From Coriobacteriaceae bacterium (lineage in GTDB: Bacteria > Actinomycetota > Coriobacteriia > Coriobacteriales > Coriobacteriaceae), in NCBI GenBank assembly GCA_902364645.1, contig CABJEP010000001.1, positions 116,375 through 180,374 of the forward strand: a stretch of 64,000 bases of DNA. Reading direction: 5' to 3'. Of the stretch, positions 11,405 through 63,907 are shown piece after piece. The first letter of the stretch is position 1, and every line of letters begins with the position of its first letter. The position numbers and the translations under genes are program-made. The notes below the pieces were generated by a model that had not been told where the DNA came from, searched no databases, and saw only the letters and a list, made by a program, of their open reading frames with translations.

Positions 11405-11426
11405 GGTAGGACTCCTTATTGGTCAG

Positions 11427-11475
11427 GCGCTGGTTACCGATCAGCGCATAAGGCGTCTTGGTTTCCGACCAAGAC
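11427..11475 (-). promoter_or_regulatory. Structured 5' leader of rpmE, candidate L31 autoregulatory RNA
   Basis: Two consecutive perfect stems precede rpmE on the minus strand: GTCTTGGT/ACCAAGAC (11455-11475) and GCGCTG/CAGCGC (11427-11447), 7 bases apart, the second ending about 22 bases before the start codon. Ribosomal protein L31 leaders that let the protein repress its own translation are known in several phyla. Assignment here is by position and structure only. Confidence 0.5.
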
Positions 11476-48894: not shown

Positions 48895-49004
48895 ACACTT
48901 TTCCGTGATTTCCACGCGCCCATTTCGACACTTTTCCGTAATTTGGGCGGCTCGAATTTGACACTTTTCCGTACTTTCATACGGCTGATTTCGACACTTT
49001 TCCG
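48895..49004. repeat. Four-copy 33-bp tandem repeat (ACACTTTTCCG)
   Basis: ACACTTTTCCG begins at 48895, 48928, 48961 and 48994, exactly 33 bp apart, with a looser TTTCG preceding copies 2 and 4. Spacers between the cores are not conserved. The array lies in a 372-bp gap with no gene. Exact phasing suggests an iteron-like binding array or a remnant of one. It is the left edge of the accessory region. Confidence 0.88.
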
Positions 49005-49073: not shown

Positions 49074-49222
49074 TCTGTCCGCGTGCGTTGATAGACTCCA
49101 TCTTGCCCGCAAGGAGCGGGCGCGTTTTATCCAGAGTCGGGGTAGAGAGTTGGCTCCACGATCCCGACGCCAACCGGCCAAAAGGCACGGTGGCCCTGCC
49201 AACATCGATGAAAGGAGTCCAT

Positions 49223-56941: not shown

Positions 56942-57044
56942 CGAAATTACGCCATTCTCAATGCTGTTTTTACGCTACTTTCAATGCAGTTTTTACGCCA
57001 TGACCGATGTAGTTTTTACGCCATATTCATTGAAGGTTTTACGC
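56942..57044. repeat. Five-copy 23-bp tandem repeat (AGTTTTTACGCC)
   Basis: The element TCAATG.AGTTTTTACGCC recurs with its final C at 56952, 56975, 56998, 57021 and 57044, exactly 23 bp apart; the first copy is degenerate. It abuts the truncated ATPase and fills most of the 301-bp gap to the next ATPase. It resembles the 33-bp array at 48895 in having a short T-rich core with strict phasing. Confidence 0.88.
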
Positions 57045-57094: not shown

Positions 57095-57150
57095 GAATTC
57101 CGGGATGCTGTCTTCGCTCCAAACAAAAGGCCCCAGCTCGCGATGAGCTG
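57095..57150. repeat. Copy of the xdh terminator region
   Basis: 56 bp nearly identical to 61000-61055, including CGCTCCAAACAAAAGGCCCC and the tail of a palindromic array unit. Here the terminator stem is incomplete. It marks duplication or recombination between the two places. Confidence 0.8.
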
Positions 57151-57239: not shown

Positions 57240-58631
57240 TTATCTCCGCTCGCACATCTCGGCAAACGAAATCAGCTTGGTATCTCCCCTGCTCGCCGCA
57301 GCTTCCTGACATCCTTGCGTAAAGCCACGCTTCGAGAAGATCACGTAGCTTTTGTGCTGCCGCCTAAAGAGCTCGCTTCGGTATACGAGCTTTTGCAGCA
57401 CGTCTTCGCCCACCAGTTCATTGCGCCATTTGCACTCCGCAAACAACGCAGCGCCCTCGCCATCGTCAACAATCAAGTCGATTTCTTCCTGCGTATGCGT
57501 GCGATTATCCGTCCCCCACCAGCGCCCGACGTTCGCCGGAACCACATCGAGTTGGCCCGCCCGCGCGAGTTCGTACAAATACTGCCTGCATATAAGCTCA
57601 AAGACCGTACCCATGTAATCCGATACGTGCGGCTCAATGCGCTTATACGCCACCTCGGCCATATCGTTTTGAATCAGCCCGATGTTCTGCGGCACAAACT
57701 TGTACCAGAACCTAAACATCTGGTCGCTCAGCAGATACACGGCTCGCTTATTGCTCGTCTCGTTTAGGGGCATCTCGCGCTCGACAATCCCAAGCGACGC
57801 CAGTTTATCCACATAGCTCTTTACGTTGCTCGTAGGGATTCCCGTGGAGCTCGCAATCTCCGAGATTCTCGAGTGCCCCTGGGCAATTGCCTGCACGATC
57901 GCATCATATTGCTCGGGATTGCGGCACTCTTGCAATAGCAGGTTGCTCGGCTCCTCAAAGAGATAGCCCGTAGGAGTAAGAAAAAGACGTTTGATGTTGT
58001 CCTTGAGCGGTGCGGCAGGATCGACTTTCTCGATATATGCAGGAATGCCGCCCGTCATGCCATAGCAAACCGCAGCGTCTTCGCGACCCATGCTATGCCA
58101 CAGGCCGAGGGTCGTCGTAAAATCGAGCGGCATGATCTTAAACTGGGCCGTACGCCTACCGTATAGTGGGCTCTCGTAGCCCAACACCTGCTCTTCCATA
58201 AACGAAAGAGACGAGCCGCATAGAATCAGCATGAGCTTGGTCTCTTTGTACAAGTGATCAATCTTGTCTTGCAACAACGAGCTGATCTCGGGATTCGATT
58301 GGGCGAGATAGGGATACTCGTCAATCACGACAATCAAACGTTCCGTGCGAGCCATGGTGGCCAATGCATCGAACGCCTCGTCAAAACTACGAAACGACAC
58401 GCCCGCAGCACCAACCGAGCTTGCAAGTATTGCCTGGCTAAAGCCGTGCAGGTTTGCCTCTGCATTGGTACGACGAGCTTGAAAGTAAATAGCCTTCTTG
58501 CCTTGGATGAACTCTGTGATAAGGCGCGTTTTACCCACACGACGTCGGCCGTAAATCACAGGCATCTCAAAGGAGCCCGTGCCATGCAGTCGATTGAGCT
58601 CGGACATTTCCGCTGTTCTTCCAATAAACAC
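57240..58631 (-). CDS. AAA ATPase with DUF234 nuclease-like domain
   Basis: A 463-aa protein. The ATPase domain has Walker A GRRRVGKT (28-35) and Walker B VVIDEYPYL (D104, E105), plus the sensor segment LILCGSSLSFMEEQVLG. A winged helix follows (SRISEIASSTGIPTSNVKSY), then DUF234 with IDLIVDDGEGAALFAECKW, a PD-(D/E)xK-like motif. The family is widespread in anaerobes and mobile regions, with unknown function. It starts with GTG after AAGGATG, and its promoter overlaps a perfect palindrome of TAGCTAGCTA sites. Remnants of two related ATPases lie next to it. Confidence 0.9.
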   Translation of the reverse strand: MFIGRTAEMSELNRLHGTGSFEMPVIYGRRRVGKTRLITEFIQGKKAIYFQARRTNAEANLHGFSQAILASSVGAAGVSFRSFDEAFDALATMARTERLIVVIDEYPYLAQSNPEISSLLQDKIDHLYKETKLMLILCGSSLSFMEEQVLGYESPLYGRRTAQFKIMPLDFTTTLGLWHSMGREDAAVCYGMTGGIPAYIEKVDPAAPLKDNIKRLFLTPTGYLFEEPSNLLLQECRNPEQYDAIVQAIAQGHSRISEIASSTGIPTSNVKSYVDKLASLGIVEREMPLNETSNKRAVYLLSDQMFRFWYKFVPQNIGLIQNDMAEVAYKRIEPHVSDYMGTVFELICRQYLYELARAGQLDVVPANVGRWWGTDNRTHTQEEIDLIVDDGEGAALFAECKWRNELVGEDVLQKLVYRSELFRRQHKSYVIFSKRGFTQGCQEAAASRGDTKLISFAEMCERR

Positions 58632-58648
58632 AGGGTCATCCTTCCTTT

Positions 58649-58700
58649 ACGTTATAGCTAGCTATATTATACCTTACTATAATATAGCTAGCTATAACGT
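58649..58700. promoter_or_regulatory. Perfect 52-bp palindrome over the ATPase promoter
   Basis: Arms 58649-58671 and 58678-58700 are perfect complements (23 bp each). Each arm contains TATAGCTAGCTATA, itself a palindrome (58653-58666 and 58683-58696). A TATAAT box for the ATPase lies at 58666-58671 on the minus strand, so a protein bound here would block transcription. The distance to the start codon is 18 bp. Confidence 0.75.
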
Positions 58701-58755
58701 AATTCGACAAGCGGCGCACGCAAAAGGGGCGGTACACCACCGCACGTGGACCGTT

Positions 58756-59115
58756 CCGGAAAATGCATCCCGTTCTGGTGCAAAAAACTGGGCCGTAGCT
58801 TCCGCCAAACATGCCATCCAGAAAGCGCGTCCCGTTCTGAGTCTGAATTCTGGGATGCATTTTCCGCTGAAGCTTCTACCGGAAAATGCATCCCATTCTG
58901 AACGTCGAATCCGGGACGCAATTTCCGCCTGCGGCCCCGTTGGGAAAGTTCATCCCAGTTTGGAGCCATAATCTGGGACACAGCTTCCGTCAGAGGTCCC
59001 AATCGGAAACTGCGTCCCACTCTGGAACCAAATTCCGGGACGCAGTTTCCGGTTGAGGGCTGATCCGGAAAACGAATCCCGTTCTGAGCGTCGAATCCGG
59101 GACGCAGTTTCCGCC
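58756..59115. repeat. Palindromic 62-bp repeat array 1 (six units)
   Basis: Units begin with GGAAA at 58758, 58820 (AGAAA), 58881, 58943, 59005 and 59067. Each has a left arm like GGAAACTGCGTCCC, a centre around TTCTGG..C.AATTCCG, and a right arm like GGGACGCAGTTTCC, then 13-15 bases to the next unit. Unit 5 pairs perfectly with itself; the right arm of unit 2 pairs perfectly with the left arm of unit 3. Units are too diverged to be a CRISPR. The rest of the 777-bp gap 58632-59408 contains the ATPase operator and a single TAGCTAGCTA. Confidence 0.9.
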
Positions 59116-59238
59116 GATACAGACGACGATCCGCGGCCCATATCACATGCCTTCAAGCATGCGATCCAGAAACACAAAACAGCAGATAGATTGCTCTTTT
59201 TCGGAAAAGTACACGTCCCTAAACTTACCAAGGCTTCA

Positions 59239-59248
59239 TAGCTAGCTA
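59239..59248. promoter_or_regulatory. Isolated TAGCTAGCTA site
   Basis: The same 10-base palindromic core as in the ATPase operator, 160 bp before the AbiEi-like gene. It may allow shared control of both genes. Confidence 0.45.
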
Positions 59249-59408
59249 CCATTCACGGGTGCCGATTACCGCCCACCGATTCGGCTTCAAAAAATGACGT
59301 CAAAAACAGGCCATCTACCTGCATGGTTAGATTTTGGTCAGCTTTTGGTCAGCTGAGCGGCAAGTTCCAGCTGATACGTTTTTGCTACCCAAAAGGAGGC
59401 GGTAGCTC

Positions 59409-60407
59409 ATGACCCATTGCAATGACCAACTCATCGATCAACTGCTCACTCAAGCCGAACAAGAGGGGCGCTGCCTGATTCCCCCGAGCACGGCGACCCG
59501 AAAAGCGCTCCTTCGGCGCATCGGCAGCGCGATCGTCTCCCCCATGCCGGGCATGTTCGCGCGCAAGCCACGCTGGAAAGAGCTCAACCGAGCGCAACGC
59601 CATTGCGAGATTATCCGCGCCCTTGCGATCATCCACCCCGATTGGACGTTCTGCTCGTTTTCGGCCGCCTGTCTGCTGGGGCTCGAGGTCTCGTGGCGAC
59701 ACCTGAACGTCGTGCATGTCTGCAGCTCGACAAAGCCGTCGGCTCGTCCGGGCGCACATATTCAGCGGCACCAGATTGAGCCGGCCGGAGCAATACGCAG
59801 AGCCGGCATATCGGTAACGCCGCCAATCCAAACGGTCACAGATTGCCTGCTGCAAACTGGTTTTGCCGACGGCATGCCCATTGCCGATTCGGCGATTTTA
59901 AAGCTCGGCCTTGCACGGGAACAGCTGATGGAGGCCGTTGAGCAACGAGCGACTGCCCGCAATGGTCGTGCAATTCGTACCGCCCTCACAACGCTTCGAT
60001 ATGCCGACGCCCGCGCCGAGAGCGGCGGGGAATCGGTCGCCCGCGCCGTCATGATCGAGACGGGCTTTGCGCCCGATTGGCTTCAATACGAGCTGACGGA
60101 CCCCTTCAATTCGGCCAAGCCCATACGAACGGACTTTGCCTGGGAGCGCCAGGCGCGGGAACTCACGCTGGGCGAGCTCGACGGGCTCATCAAATATACC
60201 AACCAAACCATGCTGGCCGGACGCACCACCGCCGAAGCGCTCGTTGCCGAACGACAGCGCGAGGCGCACCTATCGCTCTACGGTCACCCTCTGCTGCGCT
60301 TTACCATGAACGAGGTCCGCTCGGCAGGAATGCTCGCCAAAAAGCTGCAGACGGCAGGCATCCGGCAGACCGCGCTGCCGACGTGGCTCAACGAGGTGGA
60401 CCTGTAG
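59409..60407 (+). CDS. AbiEi/DUF559-like protein between the palindromic arrays
   Basis: A 332-aa protein. The first 180 residues look like the AbiEi-type antitoxin architecture found in Actinobacteria (FSAACLLGLE, GAHIQRHQI, ISVTPPIQTVTDCL). The C-terminal part matches the DUF559/Vsr-like fold pattern: SGGESVARAVMIETGFAPDW, then IRTDFAWE, ELDGLIKY and LRFTMNEV in the expected order. Catalytic competence as a nuclease is uncertain. AAAAGGAGG lies 9 bases before the ATG. It has no partner toxin nearby and is flanked on both sides by 61-62-bp palindromic arrays. Confidence 0.72.
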   Translation: MTHCNDQLIDQLLTQAEQEGRCLIPPSTATRKALLRRIGSAIVSPMPGMFARKPRWKELNRAQRHCEIIRALAIIHPDWTFCSFSAACLLGLEVSWRHLNVVHVCSSTKPSARPGAHIQRHQIEPAGAIRRAGISVTPPIQTVTDCLLQTGFADGMPIADSAILKLGLAREQLMEAVEQRATARNGRAIRTALTTLRYADARAESGGESVARAVMIETGFAPDWLQYELTDPFNSAKPIRTDFAWERQARELTLGELDGLIKYTNQTMLAGRTTAEALVAERQREAHLSLYGHPLLRFTMNEVRSAGMLAKKLQTAGIRQTALPTWLNEVDL

Positions 60408-60430
60408 GAGCTGCTAGGCCACGCATCGCC

Positions 60431-61020
60431 GGATCGCATCCCCCCCTATCTGGGCCGCGCTTTCCCAACGGCCACGCCAACGGAAAGCGCGTCCCAGTCT
60501 GGACGCTCAAAACGGGATGCACTTTCCGGATGGCGGGCCAGCGGAAAGCGTGTCCCGGAATCAAGCCTCAGAACGGGACAGACTTTCCGGTTGAAGCGCT
60601 CAGCGGAAACTGCATCCCGGAATAGACGCTCAAACTGGGATGCAGTTTCCAAGTGAATGACAACCGGAAAGTGCGTCCCGGAATAGGGGCTCGGAACGGG
60701 ATGCGCTTTCCTGACGAAGCTCCTTGCGGAAAGCGTGTCCCAGAATGAAGACTCAGAATGGGATGCAATTTCCGCCTGAAGGCGATTCGGAAAGCATATC
60801 CCGTTCTGGCATCGAATTCCGGATCGCAGTTTCCGGTTGAGAGCTGTTCCGGAAAGCGCATCCCACTCTGGAGCCGAATTCCGGGACACGCTTTCCGCTA
60901 GGGACTCAAGGGGAAAATGCATCCCATTCTGAACATCGAATCCGGGACGCAGTTTCCGCATGCGGCCCCATTGGGAAAGTTCATCCCGTTCCGAGGCTTG
61001 AATCCGGGATGCTGCCTCCG
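60431..61020. repeat. Palindromic 61-62-bp repeat array 2 (ten units)
   Basis: Units begin with GGAAA at 60482, 60543, 60605, 60666, 60728, 60789, 60851, 60912 and 60974, alternating 61 and 62 bp apart; a degenerate unit begins at 60431. Arms are of the GGAAA.TGC.TCCC / GGGA.GCA.TTTCC type; unit 60605 is perfectly self-complementary. Units at 60912-61006 are nearly the same as 58881-58975 in array 1. A minus-strand frame is open for 194 codons through the array, but the period is not a multiple of three and no binding site was seen, so I treat it as non-coding. Confidence 0.9.
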
Positions 61021-61023
61021 CTC

Positions 61024-61060
61024 CAAACAAAAGGCCCCGGCTCGCGATGGAGCTGGGGCC
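61024..61060 (-). terminator. xdh terminator
   Basis: On the minus strand GGCCCCAGCTC pairs with GAGCCGGGGCC (one mismatch), followed by TTTTGTTTGG. It lies 70 bp after the xanthine dehydrogenase stop. Confidence 0.8.
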
Positions 61061-61129: not shown

Positions 61130-63907
61130 CTACCCGCGGTGACGGGCGCGGCTGTACGGCGTATCCACCATGGGCAGATCCGGGCGCAGCTTGCCGTCAA
61201 ATGCGCGGTAGGCGTTCTGTACGGCGGGCGCCGTGGGGATCGTTGCGATCTCGCCGATGCCCTTGCCGCCGTATGCCACAGGCAGCAGCTCGTCCTTCTC
61301 AACGTAGATGGCGTGGATATCCGGAATCTCGGGCGCACGGAACAGCCCGAGCGTACCGTACCTTGCCTGGGGCACGCAGTCCTTGAGCGGCCAGTCCTCG
61401 GTCAGTGCATAACCCATACCCATGAGCACGCCGCCTTCGATCTGACCCTGGATGGAGATGGGATTGACCACCTTGCCGGAATCGTGCGCGGCATAAACCT
61501 CGCTCACGCGGCCGTCATCGTCCAGAATGACCACATGCGTGGCAAAACCGTAGCAGATATGGCTCTTGGGATTGGGAACATCGGCGCCCAGCTTGTCGGT
61601 CGGCTCCAGGTACACGTAGCCAAACTCGCATCCCTCGAGCGCCTTGATGGCAGTCGCGGGATCCTGAGGATGCATACCCTGGCCGGCGACGAGTTCCTGC
61701 GTGCGCAGCTGATAGGCGCGGCCGTCGTCGTACTCGATCTTGACGCCGTCGCCATGCGCGCTCACCGGGGCGGTAGGCGCAGGCTTGCCGGCCTCGATGC
61801 CAACCATGGCATCGCGCAGCAGGAAGGCGGCGCCGCGCACGGCCTCGCCGGTCACGACCGTCTGACGCGAGCCAGACGTGGTGCCGGAGTCGGGAGCGTT
61901 CTCGGTGGAGCACTCGCCATTGGCAATGCAGCTCAGCGGCAGACCGCAGGCCTCGGCAACGTCCTGTAAAAAGACCGTGTTGCAGCCCTGACCGATGTCG
62001 GACGTGGCGGCATAGACCACGGCCACGCCGTTCTCGACGCGAATCTTGCAGCGGCCGGCGTCGGGCAGGCCCACGCCCACACCGGCATTCTTCATGGCGC
62101 AGGCGATACCGGCATGTCCGGGATGCGCGTAGTAGGCATCCTTGACCTCGAGCAGCGTCTCCTTCAGCGCCGTGGAGCAGTCGGCAATCTGGCCGTTGGG
62201 CAAAACCTCGCCCGGCTCGATGGCGTTACGGTAGCGGATCTCCCACGGATCCAAGCCGACCTTCTCGGCAAGCAGGTCGATCAGGCTCTCGAGCGCAAAC
62301 TCGGACTGGCAAACGCCAAATCCTCGGTACGCACCGGCGGGCGGGTTGTTGGTGTAGTAGCCAAAGCCACGAATGTCGGTGTTCTGGTACTTGTAGGGAC
62401 CAACGGCATGCGTGCAGGCGCGCTCGAGCACCGGGCCGCACAGCGACGCGTAGGCGCCGGTGTCAAAGTTAATCTCGCAGTCCAGGCCGGTAAAGTTGCC
62501 CTCGGCGTCGCAACCCAGCGTAAAGGTGCCGTCCATGGCATGACGCTTGGGATGGAACGCGAGCGACTCGGCACGTGTAAGCTTGCACTTCACAGGACGC
62601 TGGAACTTATATGCGGCGAGCGCGGCCAGGTGCTGGATGGACACGTCCTCCTTGCCGCCAAAGCCGCCACCCACGAGCATGGTCTCGACGACCACGCGCT
62701 CGGGCTCGTTGTCCCAGCCAAACATGTGAGCACACTCTTTGCGCGTATCGTAGGCGCCCTGGTCGGTCGACTGCACCTTGACGCCGTTCTTGTACGGGAA
62801 GGCAACGGCGCACTCGGGCTCCAAGAAGGCATGCTCGGTAAAGGGCGTGGTAAAGCGCTGCGTCACGGTAAACGCGCTTTCGGCCAGCGCCTTGGCGGTG
62901 TCGCCGCGTGTCACATGGCGGCTCTGGCACACGTTGTCCTTGAGCTCCACCGTGTTGCCAAAGGCAAAGAAGCTGTCGTGCAGGCGCGGGGCGTCGGCAG
63001 CCTTGGCCTCGGCGATGTTGCGCACGGGCTCCAGCGGCTCGTAATCGATCTTTACGAGCTTCTTGGCCTTCTCGAGCGTCGCCTCGTCCTCAGCGACCAC
63101 CAGCACAATGGCATCGCCCACGCAGCGGGTGATATCACCTTGGGCGATCATGACGTCCCAGTCCTGGATAAGGTGGCCGACCTGGTTGACTGGCACGTCC
63201 TCGGCGCGCAGAATGCCCACCACACCGGGCAGGGCCTCGGCCTTGGAGGTATCGATGGAGAGCACGCGGGCGCGCGGATACTTGGAGCGCACGGCGCTGG
63301 CGTAGGTCAGGCCCGGCTGATCGAGCTCGTCGATGTCGTCGGGGTACTTGCCCTCGCCGAGCACCTTCTTGCGCACGTCGATACGGAAGGCGCGCTTGCC
63401 CACGCCGTAGTCGTCGCCGCGCTCCAAGTCCTCGTCGATCTGCTTTTCGCCGCGGAGCACCGCGGCCGCCAGCGAAATGCCCTCGATGATCTTTTTGTAG
63501 CCAGTGCAACGGCAGACGTTGCCGCGTATGGCGTACTTGATCTGCTCCTCGGTAGGCTCGGGATCCTCGGCGATGAGCGCTGCACCCGCCATGACCATGC
63601 CGGGGATGCAAAAACCGCACTGCACGGCGCCCACGGCGCCAAAGGCGTACACAAAGGCCTCGCGCACGTCCTCGGGCAGGCCCTCGACGGTCACGATATT
63701 GCGGCCGGCGGCAAGCGCGGTGGTCAGTACGCAGGCTTTGACGGCCGCACCGTCCACATGGATGGTGCAGGTGCCGCAGGCGCCCTCGGAGCAGCCATCC
63801 TTGGCGGAATGGATGTGTAGGTCATCGCGCAGATAGCGCAGCAACGGTTTGTTTTGGGTCGTCGTGTGCTCGACGCCGTTAACGGTAAAAGTGAATTCCT
63901 GTGCCAT
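61130..63907 (-). CDS. Selenium-dependent xanthine dehydrogenase type molybdenum hydroxylase
   Basis: A 925-aa single-chain enzyme. The N-terminus holds two [2Fe-2S] clusters: C39, C44, C47, C59 and C97, C100, C132, C134. The molybdopterin part begins near 170; typical segments are TPFTEHAFLEPECAVA, LVGGGFGGKEDVSIQ, AGAYRGFGVCQSEFALE, DIGQGCNTVFLQDVAE and AYGGKGIGEIATIP. Fusion of the iron-sulfur and molybdenum parts without an FAD domain matches the selenium-dependent group encoded beside yqeB/yqeC. It interconverts hypoxanthine, xanthine and perhaps uric acid. It starts 13 bp after the next gene upstream. Confidence 0.93.
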   Translation of the reverse strand: MAQEFTFTVNGVEHTTTQNKPLLRYLRDDLHIHSAKDGCSEGACGTCTIHVDGAAVKACVLTTALAAGRNIVTVEGLPEDVREAFVYAFGAVGAVQCGFCIPGMVMAGAALIAEDPEPTEEQIKYAIRGNVCRCTGYKKIIEGISLAAAVLRGEKQIDEDLERGDDYGVGKRAFRIDVRKKVLGEGKYPDDIDELDQPGLTYASAVRSKYPRARVLSIDTSKAEALPGVVGILRAEDVPVNQVGHLIQDWDVMIAQGDITRCVGDAIVLVVAEDEATLEKAKKLVKIDYEPLEPVRNIAEAKAADAPRLHDSFFAFGNTVELKDNVCQSRHVTRGDTAKALAESAFTVTQRFTTPFTEHAFLEPECAVAFPYKNGVKVQSTDQGAYDTRKECAHMFGWDNEPERVVVETMLVGGGFGGKEDVSIQHLAALAAYKFQRPVKCKLTRAESLAFHPKRHAMDGTFTLGCDAEGNFTGLDCEINFDTGAYASLCGPVLERACTHAVGPYKYQNTDIRGFGYYTNNPPAGAYRGFGVCQSEFALESLIDLLAEKVGLDPWEIRYRNAIEPGEVLPNGQIADCSTALKETLLEVKDAYYAHPGHAGIACAMKNAGVGVGLPDAGRCKIRVENGVAVVYAATSDIGQGCNTVFLQDVAEACGLPLSCIANGECSTENAPDSGTTSGSRQTVVTGEAVRGAAFLLRDAMVGIEAGKPAPTAPVSAHGDGVKIEYDDGRAYQLRTQELVAGQGMHPQDPATAIKALEGCEFGYVYLEPTDKLGADVPNPKSHICYGFATHVVILDDDGRVSEVYAAHDSGKVVNPISIQGQIEGGVLMGMGYALTEDWPLKDCVPQARYGTLGLFRAPEIPDIHAIYVEKDELLPVAYGGKGIGEIATIPTAPAVQNAYRAFDGKLRPDLPMVDTPYSRARHRG

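Follow-up and report, generated by a model that had tools for sequence, protein, structure and literature searches.

Regularly spaced palindromic arrays dispersed in a Collinsella clade, probably landing sites for a putative DNA-binding protein

The window, as the 64,000-nucleotide stretch of DNA analysed here is called, holds two arrays of palindromic units belonging to a dispersed family that is, as far as sampled, a feature of one clade. Probably these arrays neither form RNA hairpins nor belong to the gene lying between them, but are landing sites for a putative DNA-binding protein. They represent a variety of dispersed palindromic repeats, and of the roles that such repeats could have, binding of a putative protein to the DNA is the likeliest. 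The fuller proposal, to which we attach about even confidence, is that clade-specific, BIME-like DNA palindromes allow a putative sequence-specific protein to organise or mark the chromosome, the arrays recombining in register. It draws on the dispersion and rigid spacing of the units, conservation confined to short blocks, the lack of consistent RNA-type covariation and intergenic loci shared between species, as well as on an orientation bias in three related genomes and, at one locus, a copy-number change by two 62-bp units. A literature search returned no description of this repeat in the text available.

Arrays and genes in the window

The window palindromes comprise 15 clean units of 46 bp (48 bp with edge letters) and one remnant, arranged as follows with the neighbouring genes:

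57099..57145, plus strand: 47-bp copy (93.6%) of 61003-61049, the end of array 2 with its flank on the xanthine-dehydrogenase side
57240..58631, minus strand: flanking gene for a 463-aa protein with ATPase_2 and DUF234 (Pfam)
58757..59113, plus strand: array 1, six units starting at 58757, 58819, 58880, 58942, 59004 and 59066
59409..60407, plus strand: AbiEi-like gene, 332 aa, without a Pfam domain, a variably present passenger between the arrays
60437..60465, no strand assigned: remnant unit at the left end of array 2, with a clear right arm only (60452-60465) and an approximate left limit
60481..60774, minus strand: left half of array 2, five units starting at 60481, 60542, 60604, 60665 and 60727
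60788..61020, plus strand: right half of array 2, four units starting at 60788, 60850, 60911 and 60973
61130..63907, minus strand: flanking gene for a 925-aa protein of the xanthine-dehydrogenase family

Array 2 as a whole covers 60481-61020 with nine clean units, the remnant lying ahead of them. Of the sixteen units (six and ten) counted in a preliminary description, fifteen are clean (six and nine), but the sixteenth is the remnant. The strict 61-62-bp spacing claimed there is borne out, clean units with cores of 46 bp starting 61 or 62 bp apart within each array, and the 95-bp piece said to be common to both arrays is present at 85% identity. Between 58700 and 61100, 31 half-sites score at least 13 bits, against a mean of 0.055 and a maximum of 1 in 200 single-letter shuffles of that region; the rest of the window has two, inside the range of 0-4 seen in 20 shuffles. 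The centre of the unit is asymmetric and units therefore have a direction, which runs ++++++ in array 1 and -----++++ in array 2, the register being maintained through the flip. The regular repeat-spacer period is like that of CRISPR arrays, but the earlier judgement that the units differ too much for a CRISPR holds: the repeats are degenerate (mean column identity 81%), the spacers similar and the orientation flips. A CRISPR, with its near-identical repeats and unrelated spacers, was accordingly rejected, and an Rfam search of the arrays found no family at the gathering threshold.

The gene between the arrays had been called AbiEi-like, which two weak PADLOC matches to AbiEi support (best E=0.00097 over 82 residues), but Pfam yields no match at E<=0.001 and NCBIfam none at E<=1; no solved relative was found at E<=1. 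In AbiE type IV toxin-antitoxin systems, AbiEi stands beside the nucleotidyltransferase AbiEii. Such a system was rejected here, the AbiEi match being weak and the next genes encoding the ATPase_2/DUF234 protein and the xanthine dehydrogenase; a C. aerofaciens record gives the gene at the latter position the name selenium-dependent xanthine dehydrogenase. The 47-bp copy, beyond the ATPase gene as seen from the arrays, reads as a trace of an old rearrangement around that gene, and the ATPase region has no match in the stretch of genome G019 that was compared.

Several other features of the window were recorded. Just upstream of the ATPase_2/DUF234 gene, a perfect 25-bp inverted repeat (58647-58702, 6 bp between the arms, three TATAGCTAGCTATA-like steps) looks like an operator. 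A tandem 23-bp repeat of 4.3 copies (56947-57044) lies between a DUF4143 fragment and the ATPase gene, a tandem 33-bp repeat of 3.3 copies (48895-49004) adjoins a SAM riboswitch at 49124-49214, and an L31-Coriobacteria ribosomal protein leader occupies 11412-11447 on the minus strand.

Distribution and genomic places of the family

Applied to G001, G024 and G044, three relatives that each have one main contig, a covariance model built from the 15 window units locates about 10-13 clusters per genome. Under stricter filters, with the best first-look candidates per genome scored and some units counted on both strands, 22 of 43 Collinsella genomes carry 28-75 matches each at E<=1e-4, the remaining 21 none at that threshold; matches are likewise absent from the 22 genomes sampled in five further genera of the family. 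In a sample of the order, one of 15 genomes outside the genus gave a single weak match (E=5.7e-4). A tree from 600 bp places all 22 carriers together against six sampled non-carriers with support of 100/100; its count of changes in array presence is rough, because G004 and G018 were set as carriers though their fetched pieces showed no unit. Among named genomes, a first strict pattern found no match, in our guess because variable letters of the unit centre had been fixed in it, and a second found 13 stretches, ten labelled Collinsella aerofaciens, one Collinsella sp. and two uncultured Collinsella MAGs. Phage records gave no match to the repeat and a plasmid collection one, in a 0.9-Mb C. aerofaciens replicon classed there as a plasmid.

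The preliminary description had suggested that the arrays may be tied to the AbiEi-like gene, and had named as a refutation a random, genome-wide scatter with neither covariation nor linkage to the gene. For the most part, this refutation is what was seen. The arrays do occur genome-wide, without consistent covariation and with the AbiEi-like ortholog at a single locus, but their positions are not random, being largely intergenic and in many cases common to several species. A home-made gene caller placed 67 clusters, many of them orthologous, between convergent (29), co-directional (21) or divergent (12) genes, and five inside an ORF; three of these five ORFs have 80-90 aa, and the array in the fourth is intergenic in an annotated record. 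In one C. aerofaciens record, all four arrays checked against its incomplete gene table in PLSDB are likewise intergenic. Loci common to several species include arsC, xdh, dnaK, two patatin genes and an antiporter, some of these names resting on our own reading of ORFs.

Copy number changes in whole units at the arsC locus, where loci with one unit have an intergenic gap of 72 and those with three units one of 196, longer by 2 x 62 (G008, G012 and G004); gaps of 222 in G024 and 212 in G013 come with further changes in the flanks. The left gene did not align in any of eight loci from non-carrier species, which makes the comparison with empty sites uninformative there. This locus in carriers also adjoins the gene of a 136-aa protein (L040:5042-5449) without a Pfam match, unaligned in the same eight loci. 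At an ABC-transporter locus, six carriers scattered on the tree have an empty site with 6-7 bp replacing 218, so that the array there, at least, is dispensable. Genes for IS110-, IS21- and IS3-like transposases adjoin several arrays (L039, L043, L151 and L187), those of L187 (IS21, IS3) being named in a record and the others read from ORF starts.

Half-sites, arm pairing and orientation

Each unit is a pair of inverted half-sites of the form GGAAA-N5-TCCC. In a scan for single half-sites that presumed no unit, the distance between centres inside a unit is 33 bp in 193 of 198 neighbouring pairs, and across spacers 28 or 29 bp in 151 of 154; ten extra pairs of equal orientation lie 61-62 apart, as expected where a partner half-site scores too low. 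Among 264 distinct units, collected by similarity, GGAAA, CCC and their mirror are 94-100% fixed, the T preceding CCC is kept in 85% and its mirror A in 73%, the five positions between the blocks vary, and the centre retains a T, an A and parts of TTCTG and ATTCC. The spacer halves adjoining the arms are alike among themselves. The two constant blocks of a half-site are about one helical turn apart, which would place both on one side of the helix.

Six sets of orthologous arrays show the same contrast between species. Constant positions (2-6, 13-15 and their mirror) differ in 1.2% of 5152 interspecies comparisons, as against 28% of 3864 for variable arm positions, 24% of 5796 for the loop, 29% of 2672 for the spacer and 17% of 9862 for the flanks; the rows comprise 9 of 11 one-unit arsC loci, omit the two-unit locus L137 and include one (L191) aligned one unit off. 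Because window units served both to define the constant positions and to find the other units by similarity, decayed units are under-counted and the contrast is somewhat inflated. Under concerted evolution or recent copying, similarity would extend over whole units, as opposed to the blocks only. The blocks and their spacing are thus read by something; a putative binding protein is the simplest reader and a transposase the alternative. That constant positions are kept while variable arm positions, loops and spacers are free points to recognition of DNA rather than pairing of RNA.

The arms can pair within units and across spacers, as had been noted, but the variable arm positions of window units do so no better than shuffled (80.9% vs 80.4%). 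Two pairs inside the 264 units match more often than after shuffling, 12-37 (p 0.007) and 6-43 (p 0.019); in sets thinned to 104 and 54 units no Watson-Crick covariation test falls below 0.05, and pair 8-41 reaches p 0.042 in the set of 104 with G-U counted. Across spacers, column 12 stands out (p below 0.001, and 0.003 and 0.028 after thinning). Fully matched arm pairs across spacers number 15 where 3.8 are expected (n=150), 8 against 2.4 (n=99) and 2 against 0.7 (n=41). Inside units, the corresponding numbers are 12 with 6.3 expected (p 0.015) and, with successive thinning, 6 with 3.0 expected (p 0.09) and 1 with 0.6 expected. We infer from this excess an occasional template switching in a quasi-palindrome, not a structural rule.

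Orientation was compared post hoc with replication in three related genomes that share loci, the direction of the fork being set relative to dnaA. Units point against rather than with fork movement in ratios of 27:6, 30:11 and 22:4, and loci, ties omitted, in ratios of 8:1, 9:3 and 8:1 (sign test p 0.039, 0.146 and 0.039), so that one genome is non-significant by locus (p 0.15); orientation also varies within arrays. When 17 distinct loci were collated by eye, 12 ran against the fork, two with it and three were tied or mixed (sign test about 0.013, by hand); at xdh, one of the 12, the right array in G024 points the other way. The largest array-free stretch takes up 35-42% of the chromosome and is centred near the antipode of dnaA (joint p 0.012, 0.0007 and 0.0017, in a test that included weak positions near 2071 kb in G001 and 1485 kb in G044 and omitted G044 near 1636 kb and G024 contig 2). 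The size of this gap by itself gives p 0.14, 0.05 and 0.08, and the bias of arrays toward the origin, weak and post hoc, p 0.07, 0.05 and 0.11.

Relation to known systems and possible function

Dispersed palindromes are best described in Proteobacteria, where they are tied to RAYT proteins. The Collinsella family is BIME-like, its units being extragenic, dispersed palindromes in regularly spaced groups of mixed orientation, but it departs from REPs in the features tested, namely tag, RAYT linkage, complementary changes and copy number. REPs and BIMEs are described as carrying a terminal GTAG or CGTC tag (PMC3733652), which by inspection is absent at either end of the consensus of 264 Collinsella units. 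Their RAYT gene is described as flanked by the same repeats (PMC2817692), whereas Collinsella units occur at none of 10 fetched Y1_Tnp loci (five carrier genomes, within 2.8-3.5 kb), and a RAYT-driven REP was rejected for the lack of linkage at these loci. Complementary changes are reported to preserve pairing in the REPs of Stenotrophomonas, and REPs usually to exceed 100 copies per genome (PMC2817692); the Collinsella arms show no consistent complementary changes, with weak exceptions, and matches per carrier stay at the lower number given above. BIMEs and REPs are also reported to bind several proteins (PMC2817692). The spacing of the Collinsella units, unlike that of REPs and BIMEs, is almost invariant. 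REPINs consist of two inverted palindromic parts forming one unit. The Collinsella unit too has two inverted parts, but stands in register-keeping arrays and shows no RAYT linkage at the loci checked.

The claim that the arrays are tied to the AbiEi-like gene, and with it the idea of a two-part module in which they serve that gene, can draw on arrays on both sides of the gene in all ten orthologs as well as in the window, and is nevertheless largely refuted. Orthologs (92-95% identity) occur in 10 of 43 genus genomes, all carriers and all at one array locus, with xdh as a neighbour in the six genomes whose wider surroundings were read. The other 12 of 22 carriers (several of them drafts) have arrays and no ortholog, and units are found at none of 50 fetched loci, out of 82 listed, of distant relatives of the gene (25-43% identity); the link was rejected, and we regard such a module as extremely improbable. 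Genes between arrays do come and go. All three gene-free relatives compared (G001, G010 and G044) retain a two-unit array at this locus, whose sequence corresponds to window unit 1 in the first unit and to the last window unit at the outer end of the second, with the switch point inside that second unit; loss of the gene by recombination between the arrays and its gain into an array both fit. A 1374-aa fn3-bearing gene lies between two arrays in G001 and G024 and is missing in G011, where two units are left. In integrons, attC cassettes come with a cognate integrase and R/L box core sites. That the arrays are attC-like sites and the genes between them cassettes would suit these two loci, as well as the unmatched ATPase region in G019 and the array end copied beside the ATPase gene, but homologous recombination of the ordinary kind, acting on similar units, accounts for these events too, and most arrays seen are flanked by chromosomal genes without a cassette enclosed by two arrays, making a cassette system very unlikely.

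Transcribed RNA hairpins, whether terminators or mRNA stabilisers, strike us as equally hard to accept. The capacity of the arms to pair, the frequent position of clusters between convergent genes (29 of 67 rows, many orthologous) and the excess of fully matched arm pairs, slight inside units, speak for them. Against them, column-wise covariation inside units is inconsistent in the window units, the 264 units and the thinned sets, across spacers column 12 alone stands out, the matched-pair excess fades at stronger thinning, unit orientation flips inside arrays, no Rfam family was found, and at the ABC-transporter locus the array sits, by eye, past a T-tailed terminator. Compensatory stem changes being confined to column 12 and some fully matched pairs, the hairpin array that had been suggested was rejected on covariation, as was a structured RNA more generally. 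The blocks could also be kept in a mobile element as sites recognised by its enzyme, and the corresponding rival, unlikely but deserving of attention, is a selfish non-autonomous palindrome copied in trans by a HuH/Y1 transposase on single-stranded DNA; the constant blocks would be transposase recognition sites, and the orientation bias would result from insertion on one template strand at the fork. Restriction to one clade, polymorphic presence at the ABC locus, the bias of units against the fork and Y1_Tnp proteins in all 22 carriers favour such an element. Y1_Tnp is, however, also present in 15 of 21 non-carriers and has no unit near any of its fetched loci, the many loci common to several species speak for old residents, the variable arm positions differ between orthologous copies, which are therefore not fresh copies, and inspection by eye of one empty site, at the ABC locus, showed no target duplication.

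Of the three readings offered at the outset (satellite-like element, hairpin array and protein-binding scaffold tied to the gene), the scaffold fits best, but not its tie to the AbiEi-like gene. Under the DNA-binding explanation, a putative sequence-specific protein would bind the half-sites in oligomeric form along one side of the helix, and the bound oligomer may organise or mark the chromosome, which would keep the blocks and their spacing. Arrays would grow, shrink and flip through in-register recombination or template switching, and the same recombination would let genes between two arrays, such as the AbiEi-like gene, come and go. Nucleoid-occlusion sites are short single sites that leave a gap around the terminus. 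The NBS of Noc and the SlmA sites are described as specific and scattered round the chromosome (PMC4331003, PMC7468209). The Collinsella sites are likewise scattered, with a terminus gap suggested, but consist of 48-bp units in arrays, and their binding protein is putative. A bolder and rather doubtful extension is that the arrays form the binding landscape of a chromosome-organising system of the C. aerofaciens clade, origin-side and away from the terminus, whose protein would bind phased pairs of half-sites and read the direction of replication; its role would be analogous to that of Noc, SlmA or KOPS-type markers, though with tandem arrays.

Common human gut actinobacteria have a REP-like family without the tag and, at the loci checked, without the RAYT link, with nearly invariable spacing and a polarity opposed to replication. 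Selection acting on short, spaced blocks within repeats that otherwise vary freely can be tested in the Collinsella arrays, which also suggest how accessory genes are gained and lost at such sites between close species.
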